Positions 979 to 13,877 of a stretch of 64,000 nucleotides of DNA are shown here, one piece after another. Made by a program: the position numbers and the translations under genes. The stretch spans positions 62,001 through 126,000 of the forward strand of contig NZ_WXUB01000003.1 of NCBI RefSeq assembly GCF_011799805.1, read 5' to 3'. Each line of letters opens with the position of its first letter. Within the stretch, counting starts at the first letter, position 1. The notes beneath the pieces are model-generated. The model saw only the letters and a program-made list of their open reading frames with translations. It was not told where the DNA came from and made no database searches. This stretch comes from Maribellus sediminis (GTDB lineage: Bacteria > Bacteroidota > Bacteroidia > Bacteroidales > Prolixibacteraceae).

Positions 979-1617
979 TTAGCAACCTCCTGCGGCAACA
1001 TTACTTTTCTGTCGGCGTTGCACCTGAACCGGCTTGCTCATGTCGTCAGAATTGAGTGCTGCACCGTCTTTAGGAGCAGCCATTTCAGCATAATCGAAAC
1101 GGGCAATGCCTTTAAAATAAGCGTCATCGTCGATGGTTGAATAGAGATCATCTTTGTGCTCGAAATAATAATTATAACCTCCCAGCAAGAGCTTCACGTT
1201 ATTAAATCCAACCTGGCGATAGAACATCCACGGGCCATTGGCGTGTAATTCGTCTTCACCAACCAACACAACGGTAACTCCCATATCCCGCAGCTTTTTC
1301 ATGCGATCGATGTTTTCTTCGCGGCTAAGTACCGATGCGGCAAGGTTTTCCGATCCCGGGATATGTCCCTGACCAAAAACGAAGTTATTCCGAATGTCGA
1401 ATAGTACGATACTATCCGGTTTATTGGCAATAATATCTTCCAGTTCCCAGGGATAGACATAATCCTCGGACAAGGATAGCGCACTCACACTTTCGGCTAT
1501 GGTTTTTTCGTAAGTAAACAATGGCTTTGGCTTTGTGATAAAGCCAATAATCAACACAACTACAAAAATCGACAAAGCGATCAGAGTTCTCCACGGATTG
1601 AGTTCATGTATATGCAT
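979..1617 (-). CDS. Membrane-anchored rhodanese-like protein with C-terminal KSNVAAGGC tail (paralogue 1)
   Basis: The 212-residue protein has one N-terminal membrane segment (about residues 12-27) followed by a periplasmic rhodanese-like domain with DIRNN, GHIPGSENL and a late LLGGYNYY motif. The loop that holds the catalytic cysteine in active rhodaneses reads VVLVGED, so that cysteine is absent. The only striking cysteine is the last residue, in a tail QRRQKSNVAAGGC. The next gene upstream (1642-2256) has the same architecture and the same tail. It is the last gene of the psr-like/YeeE operon, 24 bp after its paralogue. A role in periplasmic sulfur handling is inferred from context; catalysis by the usual mechanism looks unlikely. 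Confidence 0.9.
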   Translation of the reverse strand: MHIHELNPWRTLIALSIFVVVLIIGFITKPKPLFTYEKTIAESVSALSLSEDYVYPWELEDIIANKPDSIVLFDIRNNFVFGQGHIPGSENLAASVLSREENIDRMKKLRDMGVTVVLVGEDELHANGPWMFYRQVGFNNVKLLLGGYNYYFEHKDDLYSTIDDDAYFKGIARFDYAEMAAPKDGAALNSDDMSKPVQVQRRQKSNVAAGGC

Positions 1618-1641
1618 GCTACTAATTTTTACAAGTTAAGT

Positions 1642-2256
1642 TTAACATCCTCCGGCTGCAACGTTGCTCTTTTCACGACGACGTACTTCGACGTCAACTT
1701 TTGTTGCTTCCGATTCTCCTGATCCCGCTCCGGTGAAATACATCTGGGCTCCTTTTCTGAAAGTGTATGTTTCAAAATCGACAGCAGGTGCATCATCACT
1801 TGGTCGCTGCGGTTCTATAATGGTTTGCATCCAGCAATTAATTCCACCTTTCAGAACATAAGTACTGTTGTAACCCAAGCGTTTGGTGAGTACCCACATT
1901 TGATCGGCTTTAATATCGTCGTTGGAAACAAAAACAACTTTAGTCCCGGGCATTCCCAGGTACGAAAGATTGCCGTTAACCAGCAAGCTATCGAGTGGAA
2001 TGTTTACTGCACCGGGTAAGGTATAATAACTATAATCGTCCTCGCTGCGAACATCAATCAACATCAACGAAGGATCGCCCTGGATGAGCATTTTAGCTAC
2101 CTGATCGGTAGAAACATATCTTGTAGGCTGAATCATTTCCTCCAAAAGCACTTTCGGATCGATTTGATCGGGCTCATCATTCATTGAAAGGAAGAGCGTT
2201 CCTCCGGCCAGTACAAGCATTAGAATTGTGAGAAAAATATAATTTCTGTTCATCAT
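1642..2256 (-). CDS. Membrane-anchored rhodanese-like protein with C-terminal KSNVAAGGC tail (paralogue 2)
   Basis: The 204-residue protein has an N-terminal signal anchor (about residues 5-24) and a rhodanese-like fold: LMLIDVRSEDDY, a LPGAVNIPL stretch and LKGGINCW. The active-site loop reads VVFVSNDD, so the catalytic cysteine is missing here too; the cysteine in GGINCW is at a different place. The C-terminus is RRREKSNVAAGGC, matching the neighbour at 979-1617. It starts one base after the stop of the YeeE-like gene, so it is translated in the same operon. The paired inactive loops and shared cysteine tail suggest a conserved non-canonical sulfur or docking function, which is inference. 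Confidence 0.9.
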   Translation of the reverse strand: MMNRNYIFLTILMLVLAGGTLFLSMNDEPDQIDPKVLLEEMIQPTRYVSTDQVAKMLIQGDPSLMLIDVRSEDDYSYYTLPGAVNIPLDSLLVNGNLSYLGMPGTKVVFVSNDDIKADQMWVLTKRLGYNSTYVLKGGINCWMQTIIEPQRPSDDAPAVDFETYTFRKGAQMYFTGAGSGESEATKVDVEVRRREKSNVAAGGC

Positions 2257-2257
2257 C

Positions 2258-2860
2258 TTAGAATTTATATTGCTTCATATTTTTACGTACACGTTTTTCA
2301 ATAAACATGGTTCCCCAGAATGCCGCCAGCGCCACAACGGTAAAAGCCATGGCAAAATAAGGTGCAGGAATTCCGGTAAGTTCTGTTAAGGTGATATTTC
2401 CCATTGAACCACTGTTGTAAAATCCTTCGAATAGCGGGAAAGCCAGCGAGAATCCCATGATTCCCAGGTAAAGCCCTACGGTAAAAAACAGTGCATCGAG
2501 TTTACCTATTGCAATACCCGTAAAACTGGTTCCCGGGCAGTAACCGCCGATTATAAATCCAAATCCCATTATTATACCTCCAACTATCATAGGCCCGAGG
2601 TAAGTAGGAAGGATAAATATTTTTGAAAGGTCGAGCCAACCGAAGTAATCGAAATACATCAGGCCAACCATGGCTACAATAAGCGCAGTAAAAAATACGC
2701 GAAGCACTACAAAATTATAACCGTAAAATACACCGGCCAGGTTTCTCGATGAAGAAAATCCTGAAGCTTCAAGAATAAACCCAAAAGCGATTCCGATTAA
2801 AATTGCGATTACAAAATCCCAGCCTTCTCCAATTATGCCGTTAGGAATTAAAGGTCCCAT
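2258..2860 (-). CDS. YeeE/YedE (DUF395) sulfur-transport family protein, C-terminal-type half
   Basis: This 200-residue integral membrane protein has about five hydrophobic segments and the YeeE/YedE signature GFIIGGYCPGTSFTG, whose cysteine corresponds to the conserved thiosulfate-path cysteine of the family. Well-studied YeeE proteins are about 350 residues with two pseudo-symmetric halves. Here the two halves are separate genes (this one and 2992-3528). It lies in the psr-like operon and is followed directly by the rhodanese pair. Import or membrane transfer of thiosulfate, sulfite or another sulfur species is the family expectation; the actual substrate cannot be read from sequence. Confidence 0.92.
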   Translation of the reverse strand: MGPLIPNGIIGEGWDFVIAILIGIAFGFILEASGFSSSRNLAGVFYGYNFVVLRVFFTALIVAMVGLMYFDYFGWLDLSKIFILPTYLGPMIVGGIIMGFGFIIGGYCPGTSFTGIAIGKLDALFFTVGLYLGIMGFSLAFPLFEGFYNSGSMGNITLTELTGIPAPYFAMAFTVVALAAFWGTMFIEKRVRKNMKQYKF

Positions 2861-2991: not shown

Positions 2992-3528
2992 CTATATCCA
3001 AAGTTTTCTGAAGAAGTAGGCAATGATATATCCGGTTCCGAAAATTCCGAACATCACGATTACTCCTCCCAGGGCAAATGTCGCAGTTCCACTCAAAGCT
3101 GCTCCACTGGTACATCCGCGGCCAAACTGACTGCCAAGACCAAATAGCGCACCCCCAATTATTGCCAGAATCCAGCGCTTTTTGCTGGTAATTTGCGGGC
3201 CGTTATCGGTTCTGAATTTGCCAACACGACCAAATATCAATCCCGACAACAATCCTCCCAGCAATACTCCCAGTGATTCAAAGACCAACCAGGTATACAT
3301 TGGCGAATGATCGTCGCTGACAAATTTTCCCATGTATGCGTTTGACTGTGTTGCTGACGGAGCAACAGTATTCGATGTAGTTACCACAGCACTTTTAATT
3401 GCACCACTGGCTCCAATACCGCGCCCGGTAACAAATACAGTTGCAAGAATAAGCAGACCAAGCAAAACTCCTCCCAAATAAGGATTGATGTATTTTGGTT
3501 GACCGTTTACAGCTTTATCAGTACTCAT
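2992..3528 (-). CDS. YeeE/YedE (DUF395) sulfur-transport family protein, N-terminal-type half
   Basis: The 178-residue membrane protein has about four hydrophobic stretches and the signature GSQFGRGCTSGAALSG, which carries the second conserved family cysteine. Together with the 200-residue protein at 2258-2860 it would make one full YeeE-like transporter from two polypeptides. A polar loop of about 40 residues sits between the first two membrane segments. It follows the PsrC-like gene by 20 bp, so it is in the same transcription unit. Association of split YeeE pairs with sulfur-oxidising or sulfur-reducing enzymes is common in bacteria. Confidence 0.92.
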   Translation of the reverse strand: MSTDKAVNGQPKYINPYLGGVLLGLLILATVFVTGRGIGASGAIKSAVVTTSNTVAPSATQSNAYMGKFVSDDHSPMYTWLVFESLGVLLGGLLSGLIFGRVGKFRTDNGPQITSKKRWILAIIGGALFGLGSQFGRGCTSGAALSGTATFALGGVIVMFGIFGTGYIIAYFFRKLWI

Positions 3529-3548: not shown

Positions 3549-4490
3549 TTAATATAAATAGCGTGTTATCTGTCCGGCTTCCACCATGATAAAACGGAAC
3601 ATAAATCCACCAAACAGGATCATTGCCGGTGGCAACCATTTTGGCACATGAATTCCCCATATTTCAATGGTTTCAAATACGGCAGGTAAAATCAATCCGA
3701 TCAATACCACGAACACCCAGAAACTTACCGTAAACTCACCTCCGAGGAAAAGATTCGCAGCTTCGATTGCAGTTTGCGATCCGGCCAAAAATCCCATAAA
3801 CAGGTGAATGATCAGGAATAGTTCGATAAAGATAAATACCAGGTCAATCCGGCTTAATACTTTTCGTTCGTTCGCATCTTTGCTCATCCAGATGATAGTA
3901 GCAAGCCCCGTAGAAAAACCGGAAACCAGGAAAAGCGGCCCTAAAATGGATGTATTCCATAAAGGTCGGGCGTTGAACGCCGAAAGCAATATCCCAGTAT
4001 AAACTCCGAGGATAATCGCATAGATCATCATGATCCAGGCAAGACCAACTCTGTTTTTGATGACCCAGGCTTCGAATTTTTCAAGAAAATCGAATTTCCA
4101 GTGCCACCCGGGTACTAATTCCTTCATATAACTGGCTACCCAAACAAACGATAATGGCGTGATGATCATCAAAGTCCAGGCTCCCCAACCCATCGGCGAT
4201 TCCAGACGGATGGTGGTGTACAGTTGCCAAAAGTAGAGTTTGTGTTTCAAATCGAGAAACAGGGCAAACAAGCCGAGTATCAGTGCGATTGGAGCAAGAA
4301 TTGGCGCCCACTTAACGGTAGTCTGCATTTCCTTTTCTTTACCTCTTACTACAAAGTATCCGGCAAAAAATAAGATCCCGGCAGCCAAACCACCTAAGAA
4401 CAAATAAAGTGGAATCTGCCAGTGCCAGATATTCAGGTATGGATCGATATTTGGAATATTTCGTCCGCTTACAAATAATTCTTCCTTCAT
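3549..4490 (-). CDS. NrfD/PsrC-family membrane subunit of molybdoenzyme
   Basis: The 313-residue polytopic protein has about eight to nine transmembrane helices. The start WHWQIPLYLFLGGLAAGILFF is typical of the NrfD/PsrC family, which binds quinone and has no haem. It anchors the periplasmic catalytic and iron-sulfur subunits and exchanges electrons with menaquinone. It belongs with the genes at 4660-5193 (four-cluster ferredoxin) and 5190-7445 (molybdopterin subunit), though 169 bp with hairpins separate it from the ferredoxin gene. Polysulfide, thiosulfate or tetrathionate reductase membrane subunits all fall in this family. Confidence 0.93.
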   Translation of the reverse strand: MKEELFVSGRNIPNIDPYLNIWHWQIPLYLFLGGLAAGILFFAGYFVVRGKEKEMQTTVKWAPILAPIALILGLFALFLDLKHKLYFWQLYTTIRLESPMGWGAWTLMIITPLSFVWVASYMKELVPGWHWKFDFLEKFEAWVIKNRVGLAWIMMIYAIILGVYTGILLSAFNARPLWNTSILGPLFLVSGFSTGLATIIWMSKDANERKVLSRIDLVFIFIELFLIIHLFMGFLAGSQTAIEAANLFLGGEFTVSFWVFVVLIGLILPAVFETIEIWGIHVPKWLPPAMILFGGFMFRFIMVEAGQITRYLY

Positions 4491-4659: not shown

Positions 4660-5193
4660 TTAAGTAAGAAAATACAGTTGTGGATCAGTACCGGCTTCAG
4701 GAGCCAGCGTTTTCCATTTACGGTCTTTTATCGCCAGTGAAACATCGCTGTTCGGATCGTCGAGATCGCCGAAATGTAAACACCTGGTCGGACAAACATC
4801 AACACAAGCTGGGCTTTGTCCTTTTTGAACACGGTGCAAACAGAACGTACATTTATCAACATATCCTTCAGGATGCGAATAACGTGCATCGTAAGGACAA
4901 GATTGAATACAGGCACCGCAACCAATACATTTATGATGGGTAACCGTAACAATTCCACCTTCTTCGATATGACTTGCACCGGTTGGGCAGCAACGCACAC
5001 AAGGTGAGTTATCGCAGTGATTACAACGCTCAGAACGGAATTCCAGGCTTAAACTTGGATAGGTTCCATCCACACTTTCCACGATCCAGTCGCGGCAATA
5101 GCCGTGCGGTACATTATTCTCAGTTTGACAGGCCACTACACAGTCGCCACATCCGACACATTTTTTGGTGTCGATCGCCATTGCATACCTCAT
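4660..5193 (-). CDS. Four-cluster 4Fe-4S ferredoxin subunit (PsrB/PhsB-like)
   Basis: The 177-residue protein carries four cysteine groups of the DmsB/PsrB type: C12-x2-C15-x2-C18-x3-C22, CNHCDNSPCVRCCP, CIGCGACIQSCP, and a final CTFCLHR followed by CVDVCPTRC. It has no signal peptide and would be co-exported with the Tat-dependent catalytic subunit. It passes electrons between the NrfD-like membrane subunit and the molybdenum site. Its ATG overlaps the stop of the catalytic-subunit gene by four bases, showing translational coupling. Confidence 0.95.
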   Translation of the reverse strand: MRYAMAIDTKKCVGCGDCVVACQTENNVPHGYCRDWIVESVDGTYPSLSLEFRSERCNHCDNSPCVRCCPTGASHIEEGGIVTVTHHKCIGCGACIQSCPYDARYSHPEGYVDKCTFCLHRVQKGQSPACVDVCPTRCLHFGDLDDPNSDVSLAIKDRKWKTLAPEAGTDPQLYFLT

Positions 5194-7445
5194 GCTTTAA
5201 CCTCCTTTTCTTCCCGTGCAGGTTCTTCAGTTAAAAATGTTATAAAGTTTCCTCTCATGCCGGTTCCACCCATAATCGGATCAACCACCACGTTTGTGAT
5301 CATTTCAGTGTCGCTGGCTCCTTTTCCGAAAGCACGCGAAAGTTTTTTGTTTTTATGTCCGAAACCGTGTACCATGTAAACCGAATCCCAACGAATTCGT
5401 TCGGTTACACGCACTTTTACCGGGAACGAAGTCACATGTCCGTCCTGGTTTTTCAGCCACACTTCCTGTCCTTTTTTCAATCCCCATAAGTCGGCAACCT
5501 TTGGATTCACCCAAACGCTGTTTTCGCTCATCAGATCGGAAAGATTCGGATTATTTGAGGTACGACTGAAGGTGTGCATTGGCGCGCGGCCATATATTAA
5601 GCGGTAAAAATTCTGTTGCGGTTCCGGATGTTTGGTGAACTTTGGCATCGCATCGAAACCATGATCAGCAAAATCGGTAGAATACAATTCTATTTTACCA
5701 CTGTTGGTGTTGAACGTAAAATCTTCGTTATCGCCCATGTACAAGGGGCCACTCTTTCTCGGGAATTTCTTCACCCCGATTTTCTTCATTTCTTCCAGTG
5801 AAGTTCCGAGTTGTTTCAGTTGCCAGTCAATTACTTCAGAATAATCGTCAAAATTGAAGTAATCGTGCAAGCCCAAACGCTCACCAATTTGTTTGGCGAT
5901 CCACCATCCCGGTTTCGAATCGTACATTGGCTCGATAGCCGGCATTCTTAACGCAATGTTTGGCTCCCGGTTAGGTGCCGAACGGATCACATCGTAACGC
6001 TCCAGGTAAGTTGCTTCGGGCAACACTACATCGGCGTATCCGGTTATGTCCATCGGCATGGTATCCATAACGGCAATAAACTCAACAGCTGCTGCGGCTT
6101 CTTTGAACAATGGTTTATCCGGCATCGATAGCGGCAGGTTGGTACCTGCTACCAGCCATGCTTTTACCTGGTGTTTGTAATTGTATCTCGGAATAGATGC
6201 TTTCAGCAATTCGGTAGTAATTCCCATTGTTGCCAACGGATACCTTCCTTCGTTCCAATCTTTCCAGGTCCATTCCGGTTCCGGGAAATGCGGATGCGGA
6301 AATGCTGGTACAGAAACACCTTCAGGGAAATAAAAACCACCTCGTTTTCCCCAGGCACCAAGCAATGCAGTTAAGATAGCCATTGCACGCTCGCGTTGGG
6401 TATCGTCGCCATACCAAACCACATGACGTCCCGGGTGAACAATAACCGAAGGAGCGGCACCTGCCATTGCACGTGCTGTTTCCCTGATCTTTTCAGGCTC
6501 GATGGTTGTAATTCCATAAGCCCACTCAGGAGTAAAATTCTTAACATGATCTTTCAGGTATTCCAACCCGAAAGTGTATTTTTCAACAAAGTCTTTATCG
6601 TACAGTTCTTCGTAAACCAGCACATGGATCCAGGCCAGTAAAAGCGCGATATCGGTAGCCGGTTTAATGGGCAACCAGTGTTGCGAGTGTGCTGCTGCAG
6701 TTGAAAACCGCGGGTCGACGGTTATAATCGTAGCACCGTTGTCAATGGCTTCCGACATTTCCTGAACCTGCGAGTTATGCATGTTCTCGCCAATGTGCGA
6801 TCCGATCAGCACCAGGCATTTGGTGTCACGGATATCGGTATTTTCGGGCGATCCAACATAGGCTCCAAAGGTTGAAAAGAAAGCCGAAGAACGCGGTCCA
6901 CGACAGTTAGCAAAGGCAGGCTCGGCATTGCTTTCCGAACCATAAGCTTTTAACAGGTGATGAAACTGCCCACCCGGTGTTCCGTGGTTGAACAAGCCAA
7001 ATGCTTCAGGACCGTACTTTTCCTTTACCTCTTTCATTTTGGAAGCTACCAGGTCGAGTGCTTCGTCCCATTCTGCTTCGCGGAAAAACTGGCTTCCATC
7101 CTTGCGTGTTTCGCGGATCAGCGGTTTTTTCAGACGGTCGTTATCGTAAACCATTCCAACACCACCTGTTCCACGCGGACACAAACGGCCGTTACAATGC
7201 GGATCATCCTGGTTACCAAGCACCTTTCTGATTTTACCACTTTTATCGACATAAGCCCAGCCTGCACACTTCCAAAAACATACCTCGCAATAAGTTGGAT
7301 AAGGTGTGAGGTCTTCATCACTCACCGGGTCGACCGAATTCGATTCGAAAAGGCCAAAACCTTTCGAACCAAAAGCCTTATAACTTAAGGCTACTGCTCC
7401 GGCACCGGCTGTTGAAATTTTAATAAAATCCCTTCTGGTCTTCAT
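5190..7445 (-). CDS. Molybdopterin (bis-MGD) oxidoreductase catalytic subunit, PsrA/PhsA-like
   Basis: The 751-residue protein starts with a Tat signal (RRDFIK at residues 4-9). A [4Fe-4S] motif follows at C53, C56, C60 and C89, then the molybdopterin domain and a C-terminal dinucleotide-binding domain. A candidate Mo-ligand cysteine lies in FANCRGP. The length and the operon with a four-cluster ferredoxin and an NrfD subunit match periplasmic polysulfide/thiosulfate/tetrathionate reductases. YeeE and rhodanese neighbours favour a sulfur substrate. The exact substrate is not decidable from motifs; an arsenate or other oxyanion role is less likely given the neighbours. mobA at 14716-15273 would supply the GMP part of the cofactor. 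Confidence 0.93.
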   Translation of the reverse strand: MKTRRDFIKISTAGAGAVALSYKAFGSKGFGLFESNSVDPVSDEDLTPYPTYCEVCFWKCAGWAYVDKSGKIRKVLGNQDDPHCNGRLCPRGTGGVGMVYDNDRLKKPLIRETRKDGSQFFREAEWDEALDLVASKMKEVKEKYGPEAFGLFNHGTPGGQFHHLLKAYGSESNAEPAFANCRGPRSSAFFSTFGAYVGSPENTDIRDTKCLVLIGSHIGENMHNSQVQEMSEAIDNGATIITVDPRFSTAAAHSQHWLPIKPATDIALLLAWIHVLVYEELYDKDFVEKYTFGLEYLKDHVKNFTPEWAYGITTIEPEKIRETARAMAGAAPSVIVHPGRHVVWYGDDTQRERAMAILTALLGAWGKRGGFYFPEGVSVPAFPHPHFPEPEWTWKDWNEGRYPLATMGITTELLKASIPRYNYKHQVKAWLVAGTNLPLSMPDKPLFKEAAAAVEFIAVMDTMPMDITGYADVVLPEATYLERYDVIRSAPNREPNIALRMPAIEPMYDSKPGWWIAKQIGERLGLHDYFNFDDYSEVIDWQLKQLGTSLEEMKKIGVKKFPRKSGPLYMGDNEDFTFNTNSGKIELYSTDFADHGFDAMPKFTKHPEPQQNFYRLIYGRAPMHTFSRTSNNPNLSDLMSENSVWVNPKVADLWGLKKGQEVWLKNQDGHVTSFPVKVRVTERIRWDSVYMVHGFGHKNKKLSRAFGKGASDTEMITNVVVDPIMGGTGMRGNFITFLTEEPAREEKEVKA

Positions 7446-7956: not shown

Positions 7957-8343
7957 ATGAGAAGCAGGAGAACTTTTTTGAGGATTGGTGCCGTTGGATT
8001 GGTCTCCTTTTTTGCCTTTATATGGAACAAACTTACCCTGAATCATCTGGAAGCTGTAAAACAGAAAAGCCTTACATTGCCGTTTAACCGAAATAAGGAA
8101 ATTGCCTTCAGTGCTGATTATATTATTGTAACAAAAAATAACACTACCACTGTATATTCTGCACACTGCACACATTTAGGCTGCAAAATCGATAAACTGG
8201 AAGGCGACCACTTTGTATGTCCCTGTCATGGTTCGCAATACGATTTACAGGGGAACGTATTGAAAGGCCCTGCTTATAAAAATCTGAAAGTGGTCCCGTC
8301 CACCATATCGGAAGATGGAAACAACATCACAATAAATGGCTAA
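7957..8343 (+). CDS. Rieske [2Fe-2S] protein
   Basis: The 128-residue protein has a twin-arginine-like start (RSRRTFLR) and one hydrophobic segment (residues 9-23). It has a complete Rieske cluster site: C71-T-H73-L-G-C76 and C88-P-C90-H91. C71, H73, C88 and H91 would bind the cluster, and C76 and C90 would form the family disulfide. It overlaps the cytochrome b/multihaem gene by eight bases, so the two are translationally coupled and should form one quinol-oxidising complex on the outer face of the inner membrane. It is short for a bc-type Rieske protein but intact. Confidence 0.95.
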   Translation: MRSRRTFLRIGAVGLVSFFAFIWNKLTLNHLEAVKQKSLTLPFNRNKEIAFSADYIIVTKNNTTTVYSAHCTHLGCKIDKLEGDHFVCPCHGSQYDLQGNVLKGPAYKNLKVVPSTISEDGNNITING

Positions 8344-11044
8344 AATGAAACGGAAGAAAAATAAAACCACTTTTGGAACATACGCACTTGCCATGTTCTG
8401 GTTGGTTCTGTTATCCGGTGTCATGCTGGCTATTCCGTTTGATGCTAAAGATCCGTATTTGAGCGTCAGTACCATTATGGTCAGCAATCCGTGGGCGTCG
8501 TTCATAAGAAATTATCACTACTGGAGTTCTCAGTTTTTTCTTATTCTCAGCCTGATCCACCTTTACGACCATTTTCACCACAAAATGAAAATTGGACTGA
8601 AACCCGGAATCGCTTTTCGGCTGAGTCTTTCGCTGCTGATCATTTTCCTGGCCATGATCACCGGCTTTTTATTAAAAGGCGATGCCGACAGTGTCCAGGC
8701 CCGCCAGATACTTCAAACACTTTCCGAACGCATTCCGCTAATTGGTGAGTCACTGGCTTATTCATTGTTGGGCTCACCGGAAAGCTACCAGTTAATCTAC
8801 GTACACCACATTGCCACTTTTACGGTTTTTATAGCCATTGCCATGGTAGAACACAGCCGCAAATTCTGGCCTCCGGTTATGGACTTTGTGGTTTCAACAC
8901 TTGCCACTTTTGTGATCAGCTATTTCCTAAGCGCACCACTGCACGATAATATCAATCCGGCGGTTAAAGGGCCATGGTACTTTGTGGGCTTCCAGGAAAT
9001 TCTGCACTGGTTGCAACATCCGGCTTGGTCGCTTCTGTTATTTCTGGTCGTTTTGATCCTGGTATATTTAAGCAATTCCGCAGCCGGAAAAACCATGCTC
9101 ATCAGCAAACGCAGCCTGCTGCTGTTTACAGGTTTATATGCCATACTTACCTTAATAGGCCTGTTTTTTAGAGGAGAAAGCTGGCAGTTGACTAGGCCGT
9201 GGAGCCAGGAATACAAAACCAGTGTTCTGCATAATTTCAGAACACCACGTGTGGATTTCGCTCCTGATTTTACATTAAATGAAGCTTTAAATTCACCGGT
9301 CATCCAGGGAAGAAAAGAAAGTTGTCTGGCCTGCCACACCGAAACCCATGGTTTCACCGACTCTCATTCGGCTGAAGCAATCGGCTGTATTTCGTGCCAC
9401 GGCGGCAATCCATTTGCAACCGACAAAAATCAGTCGCACAACAATATGATTCTGATTCCCGGGAATCTTTCCACAGCTAAACTTTCGTGCGGAACAACGC
9501 AGTGTCACCCTGAAATTGTGGAGCGTGTTCCCACAGGCTTGATGGCCACACTCAGCGGGATGATCAGTGTTGACCGATTTACCTTTAACGAACAGGATAA
9601 TCCTGATCTGTTGACTTCAATTTATGAACTCGCAGATTCACCGGCCGATGAACACCTGCGAAATTTGTGTGTGCGTTGCCACCTCGGAAATCCAAAAACA
9701 GAATTGGGTCCGATTAATGAATTCAGCCGGGGTGGAGGTTGCCTGGCCTGCCACCTGAATTACAGTCCGGAAGCAGAAAAAGCGCTGGCAGCGAACAATG
9801 GCGAAATATTAAAATCGCATCCCGAGATCAGTTTGAAAATTACAAACAACCATTGTTTTGGCTGCCACAGCCGTTCGGGAAGAATTTCGACCAGTTACGA
9901 AGGCTGGCACGAAACTACTTTGCTTGCGAGCGAAATGCCCGACTCAACGAACTACCGCTTGATTGAAGATGAACGCGTATTTGTAAAACAACCAGCGGAT
10001 GTACACCACGAACTTGGTCTGGAATGCATCGATTGTCATCATTCGTACGAAGTAATGGGCGACGGAACACATTACGCCCACCAGGAAGATCAGCAGGATG
10101 TGCAATGCTCCGACTGCCATTTTAATGGTGAACCACGAACAATCACGGCTGAAAACCTGGATAATGAATCGGCCAAAATTGCTGCACTTCGCTTTGGAAA
10201 CATTGCGAATAAAACATTCCTGATTACCGAAAAACATAATCGTGCATTGATCAATACCTACATCGAAAACGATTCTGTTTTCTTTCTTACTAAAAACAGC
10301 GGCAGGAAAATGACTATGAAAGCGCCGGCAAAAGTATGCTCCAGAGACAATGCGCACTCGAGCCTGGCCTGCTCAAGCTGCCATACTTCGTGGGCACCCA
10401 CCTGCATCGGTTGCCATAACGAGTATGACGCTAATGAACGCGGTTACAACATGATTGAAAATCGCGAAAAGCCGGGCAGCTGGGTGGAATACATTGGCGA
10501 GTACAATGCCAAACTGCCTACGCTGGGCATTCGAAAAACAAAAGAAAAAACCGAAGTTATACCGGTACTTCCGGGCATGATCATGACCATCGACCTGCAT
10601 TCGTACACCGGAGATAAAAATGATGCTACCATCTTTCACCGCCTGTATGCGCCGGCTGCACCACATACCACTTCAGCAAAAGGAAGAAGCTGTGTTAGCT
10701 GCCACAACAGTTCGCTGGCTTTGGGTTATGGCGAAGGTGAATTAAAATACGTGATTGAAAACGGGAAAGGAAAATGGAAATTCAAGGCGCTGTATCAAAG
10801 CGATCCGAACGACGGGCTGCCGGCTGATGCCTGGATCGACTTTCTTCAAACCCGCGAAGGCAAAGTTTCAACCCGATCGAATGTTTTCCCTTTCAGCATC
10901 GATCAGCAACAACGAATTCTTACTGCCGGTGCCTGTCTTACCTGTCATAAAGAAGACTCGAAAATAATGCAACAAAGTCTGGATGATTTTGATGAGTTAA
11001 TCTCGGGGAGAAGCTCGAAGTGCATTCTTCCTGCATGGGATTAA
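8336..11044 (+). CDS. Cytochrome b fused to a twelve-site multihaem cytochrome c
   Basis: The first 280 of 902 residues are a b-type cytochrome with about seven membrane helices. Haem b ligands are visible as H61/H75 (14 apart) and H158/H173 (15 apart, as in b6-type proteins). A GPWY motif (212-215) stands where the Qo-site PEWY of bc1 complexes occurs. The rest is periplasmic and carries eleven CXXCH sites (the first at C330-H334) and one CX4CH site, CGTTQCH. With the Rieske protein before it, this is a Rieske/cytochrome b quinol oxidase whose cytochrome c partner is built in. An alternative start at 8345 would avoid the overlap. The direction of electron flow and the final acceptor are unknown. 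Confidence 0.93.
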   Translation: MAKMKRKKNKTTFGTYALAMFWLVLLSGVMLAIPFDAKDPYLSVSTIMVSNPWASFIRNYHYWSSQFFLILSLIHLYDHFHHKMKIGLKPGIAFRLSLSLLIIFLAMITGFLLKGDADSVQARQILQTLSERIPLIGESLAYSLLGSPESYQLIYVHHIATFTVFIAIAMVEHSRKFWPPVMDFVVSTLATFVISYFLSAPLHDNINPAVKGPWYFVGFQEILHWLQHPAWSLLLFLVVLILVYLSNSAAGKTMLISKRSLLLFTGLYAILTLIGLFFRGESWQLTRPWSQEYKTSVLHNFRTPRVDFAPDFTLNEALNSPVIQGRKESCLACHTETHGFTDSHSAEAIGCISCHGGNPFATDKNQSHNNMILIPGNLSTAKLSCGTTQCHPEIVERVPTGLMATLSGMISVDRFTFNEQDNPDLLTSIYELADSPADEHLRNLCVRCHLGNPKTELGPINEFSRGGGCLACHLNYSPEAEKALAANNGEILKSHPEISLKITNNHCFGCHSRSGRISTSYEGWHETTLLASEMPDSTNYRLIEDERVFVKQPADVHHELGLECIDCHHSYEVMGDGTHYAHQEDQQDVQCSDCHFNGEPRTITAENLDNESAKIAALRFGNIANKTFLITEKHNRALINTYIENDSVFFLTKNSGRKMTMKAPAKVCSRDNAHSSLACSSCHTSWAPTCIGCHNEYDANERGYNMIENREKPGSWVEYIGEYNAKLPTLGIRKTKEKTEVIPVLPGMIMTIDLHSYTGDKNDATIFHRLYAPAAPHTTSAKGRSCVSCHNSSLALGYGEGELKYVIENGKGKWKFKALYQSDPNDGLPADAWIDFLQTREGKVSTRSNVFPFSIDQQQRILTAGACLTCHKEDSKIMQQSLDDFDELISGRSSKCILPAWD

Positions 11045-11620: not shown

Positions 11621-11932
11621 TTAAACACAACTGGCTGGTTTTGGTATGCCAGCATATTTAGAAGACAATTTCAATGGTCCGCCCGGGAACAACTGATACA
11701 ATCCTTTGATATCAGTGATACCCGATTTTCCTACTTTCCGAATGGTAAGTGTAGCACCTGCAGCCTGTTCTTTGCGCAGATAATCCAATACCTCGTAGTG
11801 CTTGTCGGTCAATTCAATGCCGTCTTCTTTTGCCATCTCGGCCGCAATTTCCTTCGACCAATCTCCGGTGTTTACCAGGTAACCTTCTTCGGTTACTTCA
11901 ACTGTTTTTCCTGCTAAATTCTTCTCAGCCAT
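11621..11932 (-). CDS. DsrC/TusE family sulfur-carrier protein with a single C-terminal cysteine
   Basis: The 103-residue protein ends in KYAGIPKPASCV, the flexible C-terminal arm of the DsrC/TusE family with the penultimate cysteine. The second arm cysteine of true DsrC (about ten residues earlier) is replaced, the local sequence being KLSSKYAG. It therefore resembles TusE and DsrC-like proteins that carry a persulfide on one cysteine rather than forming a trisulfide with dissimilatory sulfite reductase. No dsrAB is present in the window. The gene lies 10 bp from DUF1641 and 18 bp from dsrE2 in the sqr operon, which points to cytoplasmic sulfur transfer. Confidence 0.93.
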   Translation of the reverse strand: MAEKNLAGKTVEVTEEGYLVNTGDWSKEIAAEMAKEDGIELTDKHYEVLDYLRKEQAAGATLTIRKVGKSGITDIKGLYQLFPGGPLKLSSKYAGIPKPASCV

Positions 11933-11942
11933 AGTTCATATT

Positions 11943-12623
11943 TTAAGTGTTATTTTTATTGGTTTCAGCCGCCATGTTCTTCATAAAGGTTACAAAGAAT
12001 CCAAGCGCGCGTTTCATTTCCGGTTGATTCATTTCGCGCATTACTTTAATGATTGAATATTCGGGAACATTATTCATTTCCATACTGCCGTAAATTTTTA
12101 GCCCGTTATTAAGGGCAGTCATCATTTCAGGTTGAGTTGCCGAACGTACTGTTTCCATGATCGTGACCACATTATCAGCCAGTTCGCGAACATCCTCAGG
12201 TTTATAATGCGCTATAATATTATCGATAACTGTTCCGGCTTCTGCAAAGAATTCGAAATAGCCTTTTTGGTCAAGTTCATTCAGTTTTTTAGTGAAATCG
12301 ATAATCACTTCGTTCAGAATCGGAGAGGCATCTTTTATAAGATCGTTAATGCTTTCAAACATTTCCAGAAACTTGTTCATGTTGTCAATGTTCCGGAGTA
12401 TCCTTAACATTAGTCCTTTAACCTCATCCAGATCGAGATGCACCATTCGGTTATCCAGTTCCTCAACTGCTGTGTCGTACATATCTTTCCCAACTATCGA
12501 TATATCGGCAATAAGATCTTCTAGTTGATTTGTTTTTAGACGCTGTTGGTTTACATATTCCAGCAACAAATCCACTTTCTGATTCAGTTGGGCTATTTCT
12601 GCTTGTAATGTATTTTCTTCCAT
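11943..12623 (-). CDS. DUF1641 protein
   Basis: The 226-residue, cysteine-free, largely helical protein starts with a coiled coil (EIAQLNQKVDLLLEYVNQQR). It contains the DUF1641 (COG2427) core in the second half with repeated helices such as RELADNVVTIMETV and a C-terminal RALGFFVTFMKNMA segment. DUF1641 proteins are regularly encoded beside sulfide:quinone oxidoreductases and formate dehydrogenases. The molecular role is not established; a membrane-associated partner or chaperone of SQR is the usual guess. It is 18 bp from sqr and 10 bp from the DsrC-like gene. Confidence 0.88.
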   Translation of the reverse strand: MEENTLQAEIAQLNQKVDLLLEYVNQQRLKTNQLEDLIADISIVGKDMYDTAVEELDNRMVHLDLDEVKGLMLRILRNIDNMNKFLEMFESINDLIKDASPILNEVIIDFTKKLNELDQKGYFEFFAEAGTVIDNIIAHYKPEDVRELADNVVTIMETVRSATQPEMMTALNNGLKIYGSMEMNNVPEYSIIKVMREMNQPEMKRALGFFVTFMKNMAAETNKNNT

Positions 12624-12641: not shown

Positions 12642-13877
12642 TTAGTTCACCTTTTTCTTACCGGCCATTGTCATGTGTGGTTCTATCGGCATTTCCTTTC
12701 CTTTGAGCAAAATGTGCCAGTAGATCCAGCGGAACATCACCTTTCCGTAATGGTTGATTTTCGTATTTTTCAGCAAACCAAAGGGTCCGATTCCCGGAAG
12801 CGGGAAAGTGCCGGGCAGCGGTTCTGTATCGTAGTTAAAATCAATCAATGCTCCTTTACCATGTCCTGTTTCTATGTAACAATTGGCATGTCCGTCAAAC
12901 ATAGCCTGCAAGGGCCGACCTTCTATAGCGCTCATCAGGTTCTCGAAAAGAATTTCTGCTGCAAAGTGCGCCACCGATCCTGCTTTCGAGGTAGGAATGT
13001 TAGCTGCATCGCCCAATACAAAAATGTTTTCGTGTGCTACCGACTGCAAAGTGTGCTTGTTGGTAGGCACAAAATTCATGTCGTCGCCTAAGCCACTTCG
13101 TTCAATCATTTCATCCCCCATATTCACAGGGACAACCGTCAGCACATCAAAATCAATTTCATTCTCGTCGTAGGAAATCAACTTCTTGTTGTCGTTGTCC
13201 ACTCTTTCGATGTAGAAATCAGGAACAACCTTGATGTTTTTTTCTGCCAGTAATTCCGACAACATCTTAGTTGCAATCGGTTTCGTAAAAGCACCCGGCA
13301 TGGGCGTTACATAGGTGATATCAACTCTATCCCGGATTCCTTTTTCAGTAAAATAGGCATCGGCCAGAAAGACAAACTCTAGTGGCGCAACCGGGCATTT
13401 GTAAGGCAACTCGGTAATGGCCATTACCAGCTTTCCTCCTTCCCAGCCTTTAAAGAAATTCTGAAGCGCCATTGCGCCTTCAACTGTATAAAAATCAAAT
13501 ATCTCCTTGTACCACAATTTATCCTGAAGTCCGGGTGTTTCAGAAGGAACTGTTTTTGTTCCGGTAGCTACAATCAAAAAATCATAATTCAATACCTGGC
13601 CGCCATCAAGAACCACTTTATTCGCTTCGGCCTCAATCTTATCAATTTTCGAATAGATCATTTTTACCCCGGCCGGAATAAAGTCCGATTTTGGCTTGAT
13701 CACATCCTGTTTGTTGTAAATGCCAAAGGGGATGAATAAAAATCCCGGCTGATAATAATGGGTCTTAAACTGATCCACAATTGTGATATCCCATTCCTCC
13801 CTGTCGAGTGAATTCCGCAGTTTATTGGCCATCATTGTTCCGGCAGTACCGGCGCCAAGTATTACAATTCGCTTCAT
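12642..13877 (-). CDS. sqr: Sulfide:quinone oxidoreductase-type FAD flavoprotein
   Basis: The 411-residue protein has an N-terminal dinucleotide-binding motif GAGTAG (8-13), the NADH-dehydrogenase-II/SQR fold, a second FAD motif VLGDAANIP (288-296), and a C-terminal amphipathic region for membrane contact. The two cysteines that perform sulfide oxidation in SQRs are present: C161 in the characteristic KCPVAPLE motif and C333 in ANCYIETG. No third active-site cysteine is evident. It would oxidise sulfide to protein-bound polysulfide and reduce menaquinone. It is the first gene of a four-gene sulfur-relay operon, divergent from the Crp/Fnr regulator. Confidence 0.9.
   Translation of the reverse strand: MKRIVILGAGTAGTMMANKLRNSLDREEWDITIVDQFKTHYYQPGFLFIPFGIYNKQDVIKPKSDFIPAGVKMIYSKIDKIEAEANKVVLDGGQVLNYDFLIVATGTKTVPSETPGLQDKLWYKEIFDFYTVEGAMALQNFFKGWEGGKLVMAITELPYKCPVAPLEFVFLADAYFTEKGIRDRVDITYVTPMPGAFTKPIATKMLSELLAEKNIKVVPDFYIERVDNDNKKLISYDENEIDFDVLTVVPVNMGDEMIERSGLGDDMNFVPTNKHTLQSVAHENIFVLGDAANIPTSKAGSVAHFAAEILFENLMSAIEGRPLQAMFDGHANCYIETGHGKGALIDFNYDTEPLPGTFPLPGIGPFGLLKNTKINHYGKVMFRWIYWHILLKGKEMPIEPHMTMAGKKKVN

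Follow-up and report, generated by a model that had tools for sequence, protein, structure and literature searches.

A C-terminal Gly-Gly-Cys tail on rhodanese proteins encoded beside half-size YeeE transporters in Bacteroidota, and its possible role in sulfur import

Introduction

Two adjacent genes of Maribellus sediminis, encoding the rhodanese proteins Rhd1 and Rhd2, both terminate with the codons for KSNVAAGGC followed by TAA, and the question they raise is what purpose such a shared terminal cysteine might serve. The genes lie in what is termed here the window, the whole 64,000-nucleotide stretch of DNA that was analysed. An initial annotation of this DNA had pointed out the common ending, had proposed, among other roles, that the last cysteine may carry sulfur in place of a missing catalytic cysteine, and had recognised no described family with this tail. 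Our literature search, with most subscription journals outside its coverage, likewise found no published description of it.

The question bears on a broader one. According to PMC11582611, it has yet to be settled how YeeE-type importers receive their sulfane sulfur, and for a large group of Bacteroidota we propose that the answer may be a tethered terminal cysteine located beside conserved pore cysteines, in which case the tail would also provide a sequence marker for such systems.

The Rhd1-Rhd2 locus

The genes of the locus, in window positions, are as follows.

979..1617, minus strand: Rhd1, 212 aa, with an N-terminal membrane anchor (assigned by eye), a rhodanese domain without loop cysteine and a GGC tail
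982..1008, minus strand: KSNVAAGGC tail of Rhd1
1642..2256, minus strand: Rhd2, 204 aa, with an N-terminal membrane anchor (assigned by eye), a rhodanese domain and a GGC tail
1645..1671, minus strand: KSNVAAGGC tail of Rhd2
2258..2860, minus strand: YeeE_A, half-size YeeE/YedE protein matching the N-terminal half of PF04143, its only cysteine being C108 in GGYCPGTS
2992..3528, minus strand: YeeE_B, half-size YeeE/YedE protein matching the C-terminal half of PF04143, its only cysteine being C139 in GRGCTSG
3549..4490, minus strand: NrfD-like membrane subunit
4660..5193, minus strand: 4Fe-4S subunit (NrfC-like)
5190..7445, minus strand: PhsA-like molybdoenzyme with a twin-arginine-like start

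The genes for the YeeE halves and for the NrfD-like, 4Fe-4S and PhsA-like proteins are located upstream of those for Rhd1 and Rhd2 and run in the same direction. Rhd1 and Rhd2 score 43.8 and 53.7 bits, respectively, against a gathering score of 22.2 for PF00581 and belong to the rhodanese family, with 26% identity to one another across their aligned length. The loops VVLVGED of Rhd1 and VVFVSNDD of Rhd2 lack the catalytic cysteine, as the initial annotation had stated, with a serine in its place in Rhd2, and neither protein qualifies as a catalytic rhodanese. Its reading of the shared end was also borne out at the codon level, where synonymous differences account for seven of the nine tail codons and the remaining two, those for V and the first G, are the same in both genes. 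The window proteins carry one cysteine each in YeeE_A, YeeE_B and Rhd1 (C212), and Rhd2 has one (C141) in addition to that of the tail (C204).

The two YeeE proteins conform to the PmpAB/YedE1E2 pattern, in which the transporter is split into two halves and each half has a single conserved cysteine, here C108 and C139. They fall short of assignment to TsuA (NF052577), for which they reach 17.0 and 28.4 bits against a curated cut-off of 400, and a sequence search of the PDB with both halves yielded no match at E 0.01. The molybdoenzyme matches PhsA (NF012032) at 454 bits, below the curated equivalog cut-off of 694, and is therefore described as PhsA-like and not assigned to PhsA. A Pfam search at E 0.1 revealed no SoxY domain (PF13501) in Rhd1 or Rhd2 and added a sub-threshold holin match for Rhd1.

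Conservation of the terminal cysteine

Among the best 120 of 337 Rhd1 homologues, window protein included, 119 end in GGC and the lone exception (P0098) is a 173-aa fragment; among the best 120 of 457 Rhd2 homologues, again including the window protein, the ending occurs in 118 and is missing from P0170, where the sequence breaks off after GG, and from P0203, with 178 aa. The terminal cysteine is usually the sole cysteine of the Rhd1 homologues among these best 120. In these homologues the GGC is kept and the linker preceding it is not. The shared KSNVAAGGC end exemplifies a broader pattern in the sampled Bacteroidota, where nearly every rhodanese beside or fused to a half-size YeeE pair finishes with a terminal cysteine.

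When the endings at YeeE loci were tallied, GGC (38) was followed by EGC (10), GGCE (4), MGC (4), GGCS (3), GGCG (3) and others in smaller numbers; GGCD and GLCS also occur and GGCGG was absent from the tallied endings. Given this variation, it is the cysteine that constitutes the constant element. The catalytic position was compared in 166 aligned rhodaneses from YeeE loci, nearly all of them tail-bearing and with tandem rhodaneses left out, and the column holds serine in 87, alanine in 32, glycine in 30 and cysteine in 6. An intact loop cysteine in most relatives, together with a freely drifting tail, had been named beforehand as a finding that would count against a special role of the tail, and these six fall far short of it.

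Association with the half-size YeeE pair

Genome sampling covered the order and the phylum to which the window belongs; the Rhd1 profile detected relatives in 56 of the 198 order-level genomes and in 6 of the 296 sampled from the phylum. In 60 fetched neighbourhoods, together with the stretches from the own genome, the tail was present on 91 of the 96 rhodanese ORFs scoring above 40, a count that omits the lower-scoring tandem rhodaneses, and on none of 220 recognised other neighbour genes. A scan of all genomes with the Rhd2 profile yielded 293 named loci, and each of the 80 that scored best has a tail rhodanese and a title naming a Bacteroidota or Chlorobiota lineage; named strains among the matches listed include Marinifilum, Labilibaculum, Ancylomarina and Carboxylicivirga.

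A search seeded with YeeE_A, and so independent of rhodanese seeding, located YeeE_A in 83 of the 198 and 50 of the 296 genomes. Eighty further loci were fetched, those not obtained earlier via the rhodanese search, and three high-scoring (G228, G332, G259:C35) and four low-scoring (G377:C34, G377:C94, G458:C149, G056:C66) YeeE matches were left out. In the 74 loci with a good YeeE_A match, about 3 kb having been fetched on each side and some stretches being cut by contig ends, a rhodanese was found in 73, YeeE_B in 73 and NrfD in 26. A script could score 69 of the 74; of the other five, L228 is open-ended and L255, L259, L268 and L272 were read as ending in GGC or EGC. A cysteine lies within the last three residues of the adjacent or fused rhodanese in 68 of the 69, and L275 is the only scorable locus lacking the tail, which leaves a single case of the tail-less syntenic homologues that had been named in advance as telling against the proposal. 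The fusion protein of L214 has no tail. As the partner of the tail, the initial annotation had suggested either the molybdoenzyme or YeeE, and it is the half-size YeeE pair that proved constant and the molybdoenzyme that did not; a tie to the latter was rejected, 48 of the 74 loci lacking NrfD in the fetched stretch.

No rhodanese adjoins YeeE at six loci where the YeeE match is weak, and at three of them a tail-less rhodanese-domain protein of about 490 aa is encoded nearby. The own genome encodes nine PF00581 proteins, and the three that bear the tail are those beside its two half-YeeE pairs; no rhodanese occurs in the 3.9 kb read around its full-length YeeE. At the second half-YeeE locus of this genome (L110, 16588-18808 of contig C5) the rhodanese ends in QLDGGCE and is followed by a 145-aa rhodanese-like protein without cysteine and without tail, with a tail-less tandem rhodanese alongside.

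The cysteine motif is retained in 133 of 134 YeeE_A and 130 of 132 YeeE_B relatives. A total of two cysteines was counted in 99 of 126 half-size YeeE_A relatives, and the single cysteine per half seen in the window is therefore not general. At one locus, L085, decay or sequencing error has broken up every one of the reading frames for the molybdoenzyme, FeS, NrfD and YeeE_A, and that of the tail rhodanese is whole.

Different proteins bearing the tail

The tail is carried by single rhodaneses, by YeeE_A-rhodanese fusions and by tandem rhodaneses. YeeE_A frames exceeding 380 aa occur in 36 of the 48 YeeE-seeded loci without NrfD, and among the best 120 of 2420 homologues of the YeeE fusion 118 have a GGC end. 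In the 41 of these 120 that were aligned, no cysteine other than C108 of the pore motif and the terminal one is invariant. An AlphaFold2 model of a 408-aa fusion predicts the rhodanese domain with confidence and no structure after residue 379; the four C-terminal residues have confidence values under 50, and the membrane half is of low confidence.

The tail-bearing tandem rhodaneses are about 380 aa long, have a lipoprotein-like start (by eye) and retain their loop cysteines, that of the second loop being present in all 13 inspected by eye, and they do not occur at every locus. Since the tail is also found on proteins that keep their catalytic cysteines, the initial proposal that the terminal cysteine simply replaces that of the loop is weakened, and the part of it that stands is the sulfur-carrying arm, which fits the evidence.

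Tails matched within a locus

When the nine residues preceding GGC were compared between Rhd1 and Rhd2 at 28 loci, their identity averaged 0.647 within a locus versus 0.258 between loci, a result reached in none of 5000 permutations. For the rhodanese cores of the same 28 loci, identity was 27.6% within and 26.3% between loci, and 44 of 5000 permutations reach that excess. For all tail proteins at 36 loci the values were 0.469 and 0.199 (none of 2000 permutations), and another 14 loci, analysed as a separate set, gave 0.579 and 0.165 (none of 5000). The 28- and 36-locus sets omit L111, L053, L066 and L103 as, respectively, a copy of the window, a partial locus, a near-duplicate and a second locus of one genome. 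A poor tail match was noted by eye at several loci, among them L104, L211 and L214, and most of these encode fusions.

Rhd1 and Rhd2 form separate clades, with support 100/99, and recent duplication is therefore not the reason for the match. It is rare for paralogues that separated long ago to have short tails that are matched within a locus and diverge between loci.

Concerted evolution via gene conversion is common, and short tracts could have been exchanged between the neighbouring 3' ends of these genes, which are adjacent and in tandem, such that the linkers would match with no reader involved and the GGC might still be an arm. Identical tail residues share the same codon in 122 of 247 cases, the expectation being 115.2 ± 7.3, and the 3' flanks are alike at 0.34 within versus 0.30 between loci. 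With codon sharing close to chance and flanks little more alike, recent gene conversion is not visible, and the carriers moreover include differing frames such as those of the YeeE fusion and of the tandem rhodanese. An old conversion with saturated synonymous sites would accord with the codon result, and overall we consider gene conversion unlikely.

Two loci of one genome have tails that are 0.206 alike on average (range 0.11 to 0.44; a value was obtained for 7 of 8 genomes), from which it follows that the match is a property of the individual locus and does not extend across a genome. Genome-wide composition, for which composition-only shuffling gives 0.250, and a genome-wide reader were rejected on this basis.

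Linkers matched in this way are suggestive of a reader that the locus itself encodes. Correlating distances over 110 loci (seven left out) gave no clear winner and did not single out YeeE, the partial correlations being 0.26 for MoPhsA, 0.24 for Rhd, 0.17 for YeeE_B, 0.05 for FeS, -0.04 for YeeE_A and -0.19 for NrfD. Tentatively, and with rather less conviction than for the arm itself, we entertain a single co-evolving arm across architectures, shared by rhodaneses without activity, by tandem rhodaneses that are active and by the transporter, which could act as a locus-specific barcode such that a single partner would accept sulfur from its own locus and from no other locus in the cell.

A possible sulfur arm for the importer

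The reading that we favour, with modest confidence, is that the GGC tail is a periplasmic sulfane-sulfur arm that loads a YedE1E2/PmpAB-type importer and whose linker is read by a partner encoded in the locus. It builds, at the level of sequence, on the observed anatomy, conservation, partner association and matched tails. The GGC would form the tip of a flexible, membrane-tethered arm, and its placement in the periplasm is suggested by the N-terminal anchors, clear for Rhd2 and less so for Rhd1, and by the lipoprotein-like tandem members. The terminal cysteine would be charged as a persulfide or thiosulfonate by an active donor, candidates being the tandem rhodanese where there is one, polysulfide made by sulfide:quinone reductase (SQR), or the Phs-like enzyme where present. 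Transfer would probably proceed inwards, the arm entering the periplasmic mouth of the YeeE_A/YeeE_B importer and giving its sulfur to the channel cysteines. The rhodanese domain without loop cysteine may act as a substrate-binding or docking body, and the 9-12 residues before GGC would be read by a same-locus partner, most likely the transporter or the complex, which would keep the tails of one locus's carriers alike.

Alternatively, the tail could be a recognition or processing signal, its linker bound by an enzyme of the locus that modifies, cleaves or anchors the protein at GGC, the cysteine carrying no turnover sulfur. Matching of the tail body per locus at the protein level and the presence of the tail on several architectures would be expected for such a signal, but among the window gene families searched only YeeE accompanies the tail throughout, the tail cysteine of the fusions pairs with one invariant channel cysteine, and the tail lacks the C-terminal membrane segment that known sorting tails have; we judge a processing signal to be distinctly unlikely.

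The terminal cysteines might also form disulfides between carriers (Rhd1-Rhd2 or rhodanese-tandem), making the tail a tether or redox switch for complex assembly. Two or more tail proteins do occur at 36 loci, and disulfides could also link copies of one protein, whereas a single tail-bearing rhodanese was detected in 79 of the best 80 of 293 loci (some cut by contig ends) and the fusion is the only tail protein seen in many fusion loci, which renders this role very improbable. Least probable of all is an arm that carries selenium, tellurium or a metal in place of sulfur, hinted at by a weak YeeE_A match, 19 bits against a cut-off of 200, to a family of putative selenium transporters and by a neighbouring cytochrome resembling those of Ext selenite/tellurite operons, but at odds with the PhsA-like operon, with the SQR, DsrE2-like and TusE/DsrC-like genes nearby and with the reported import of zero-valent sulfur by half-size pairs (PMC10812762).

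A link to selenoproteins of the TsoB family was considered separately and rejected, the scores being weak and at the level of rhodaneses only.

Comparison with known sulfur systems

Cysteines near the C terminus serve as carriers in DsrC/TusE, and the DsrC arm had been offered in the initial annotation as the comparison. The likeness lies in the position of the cysteine, on a different protein family, and a separate TusE/DsrC-like gene is present in the window:

11621-11932: TusE/DsrC-like gene

SoxY seems closer. It is reported to carry sulfur on a C-terminal GGCGG (PMC6067878, PMC5336275), so that there too a periplasmic sulfur protein has an arm with a C-terminal Gly-Gly-Cys, and PMC11582611 calls it conceivable that the SoxY cysteine passes sulfur to the cysteines of the YeeE protein SoxT. 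Unlike SoxY, the tail proteins contain a rhodanese domain, are membrane-anchored or fused to the transporter, usually end in GGC and not GGCGG, and carry matched tails on several proteins; nearest to the SoxY ending are two proteins of L099, with GGCGD and GGCGE. SoxY itself gave no match in the own genome, a weak result in that the control query matched nowhere. The tail system suggests, by analogy, a SoxY-like arm on an unrelated protein, and it is from this similar chemistry laid out on another fold that the GGC is read as a sulfane-sulfur arm probably loading the importer from the periplasm.

For YedE1E2, a half-size YeeE pair, import of zero-valent sulfur with one essential cysteine per subunit has been reported (PMC10812762). 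The window resembles YedE1E2/PmpAB in its two half-size YeeE proteins with one cysteine each (PMC10812762, PMC11582611) and differs in the size of the halves, 200 and 178 aa as opposed to the reported approximately 130 aa, and in the tail rhodanese alongside. TsuA/YeeE functions with TsuB/YeeD in thiosulfate uptake (PMC11582611, PMC13047784), and the window shares with it a YeeE pore with a sulfur protein as partner, but the pore is split and the partner is a rhodanese. A TusA-like partner has also been reported for YeeE transporters (PMC11582611), and the own genome gave no match to the TusA family in a search whose control matched in 11/14.

The Rhd2 profile matches the PDB entry 1qxn, named sulfide dehydrogenase, at 4.1e-5. 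Sud of Wolinella is a periplasmic rhodanese that feeds polysulfide reductase and uses its loop cysteine. The window resembles it in having a rhodanese adjoining Psr/Phs-type genes, but the loop cysteine is replaced and a cysteine is located on the tail.

Neighbouring genes

Further genes of the window, beyond the operon, include the following.

7957-8343, plus strand: Rieske protein
8336-11044, plus strand: 902-aa protein with a cytochrome b part joined to a multihaem cytochrome c part
11943-12623, minus strand: 226-aa protein with no NCBIfam match at E 0.1
12642-13877, minus strand: Type III sulfide:quinone reductase

The SQR scores 660 bits against a cut-off of 525 for an NCBIfam model named as the selenoprotein subtype, and despite this match its ORF was read without a recoded stop. 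The gene for the 226-aa protein is located between the TusE/DsrC-like gene and that of SQR, as it is also in L086 and L090. The cytochrome c part of the 902-aa protein scores 244 bits, with a cut-off of 800, against ExtM from operons for selenite/tellurite reduction, which it resembles; the Rieske protein is encoded upstream of this cytochrome, relatives of which occur in several of the fetched loci.
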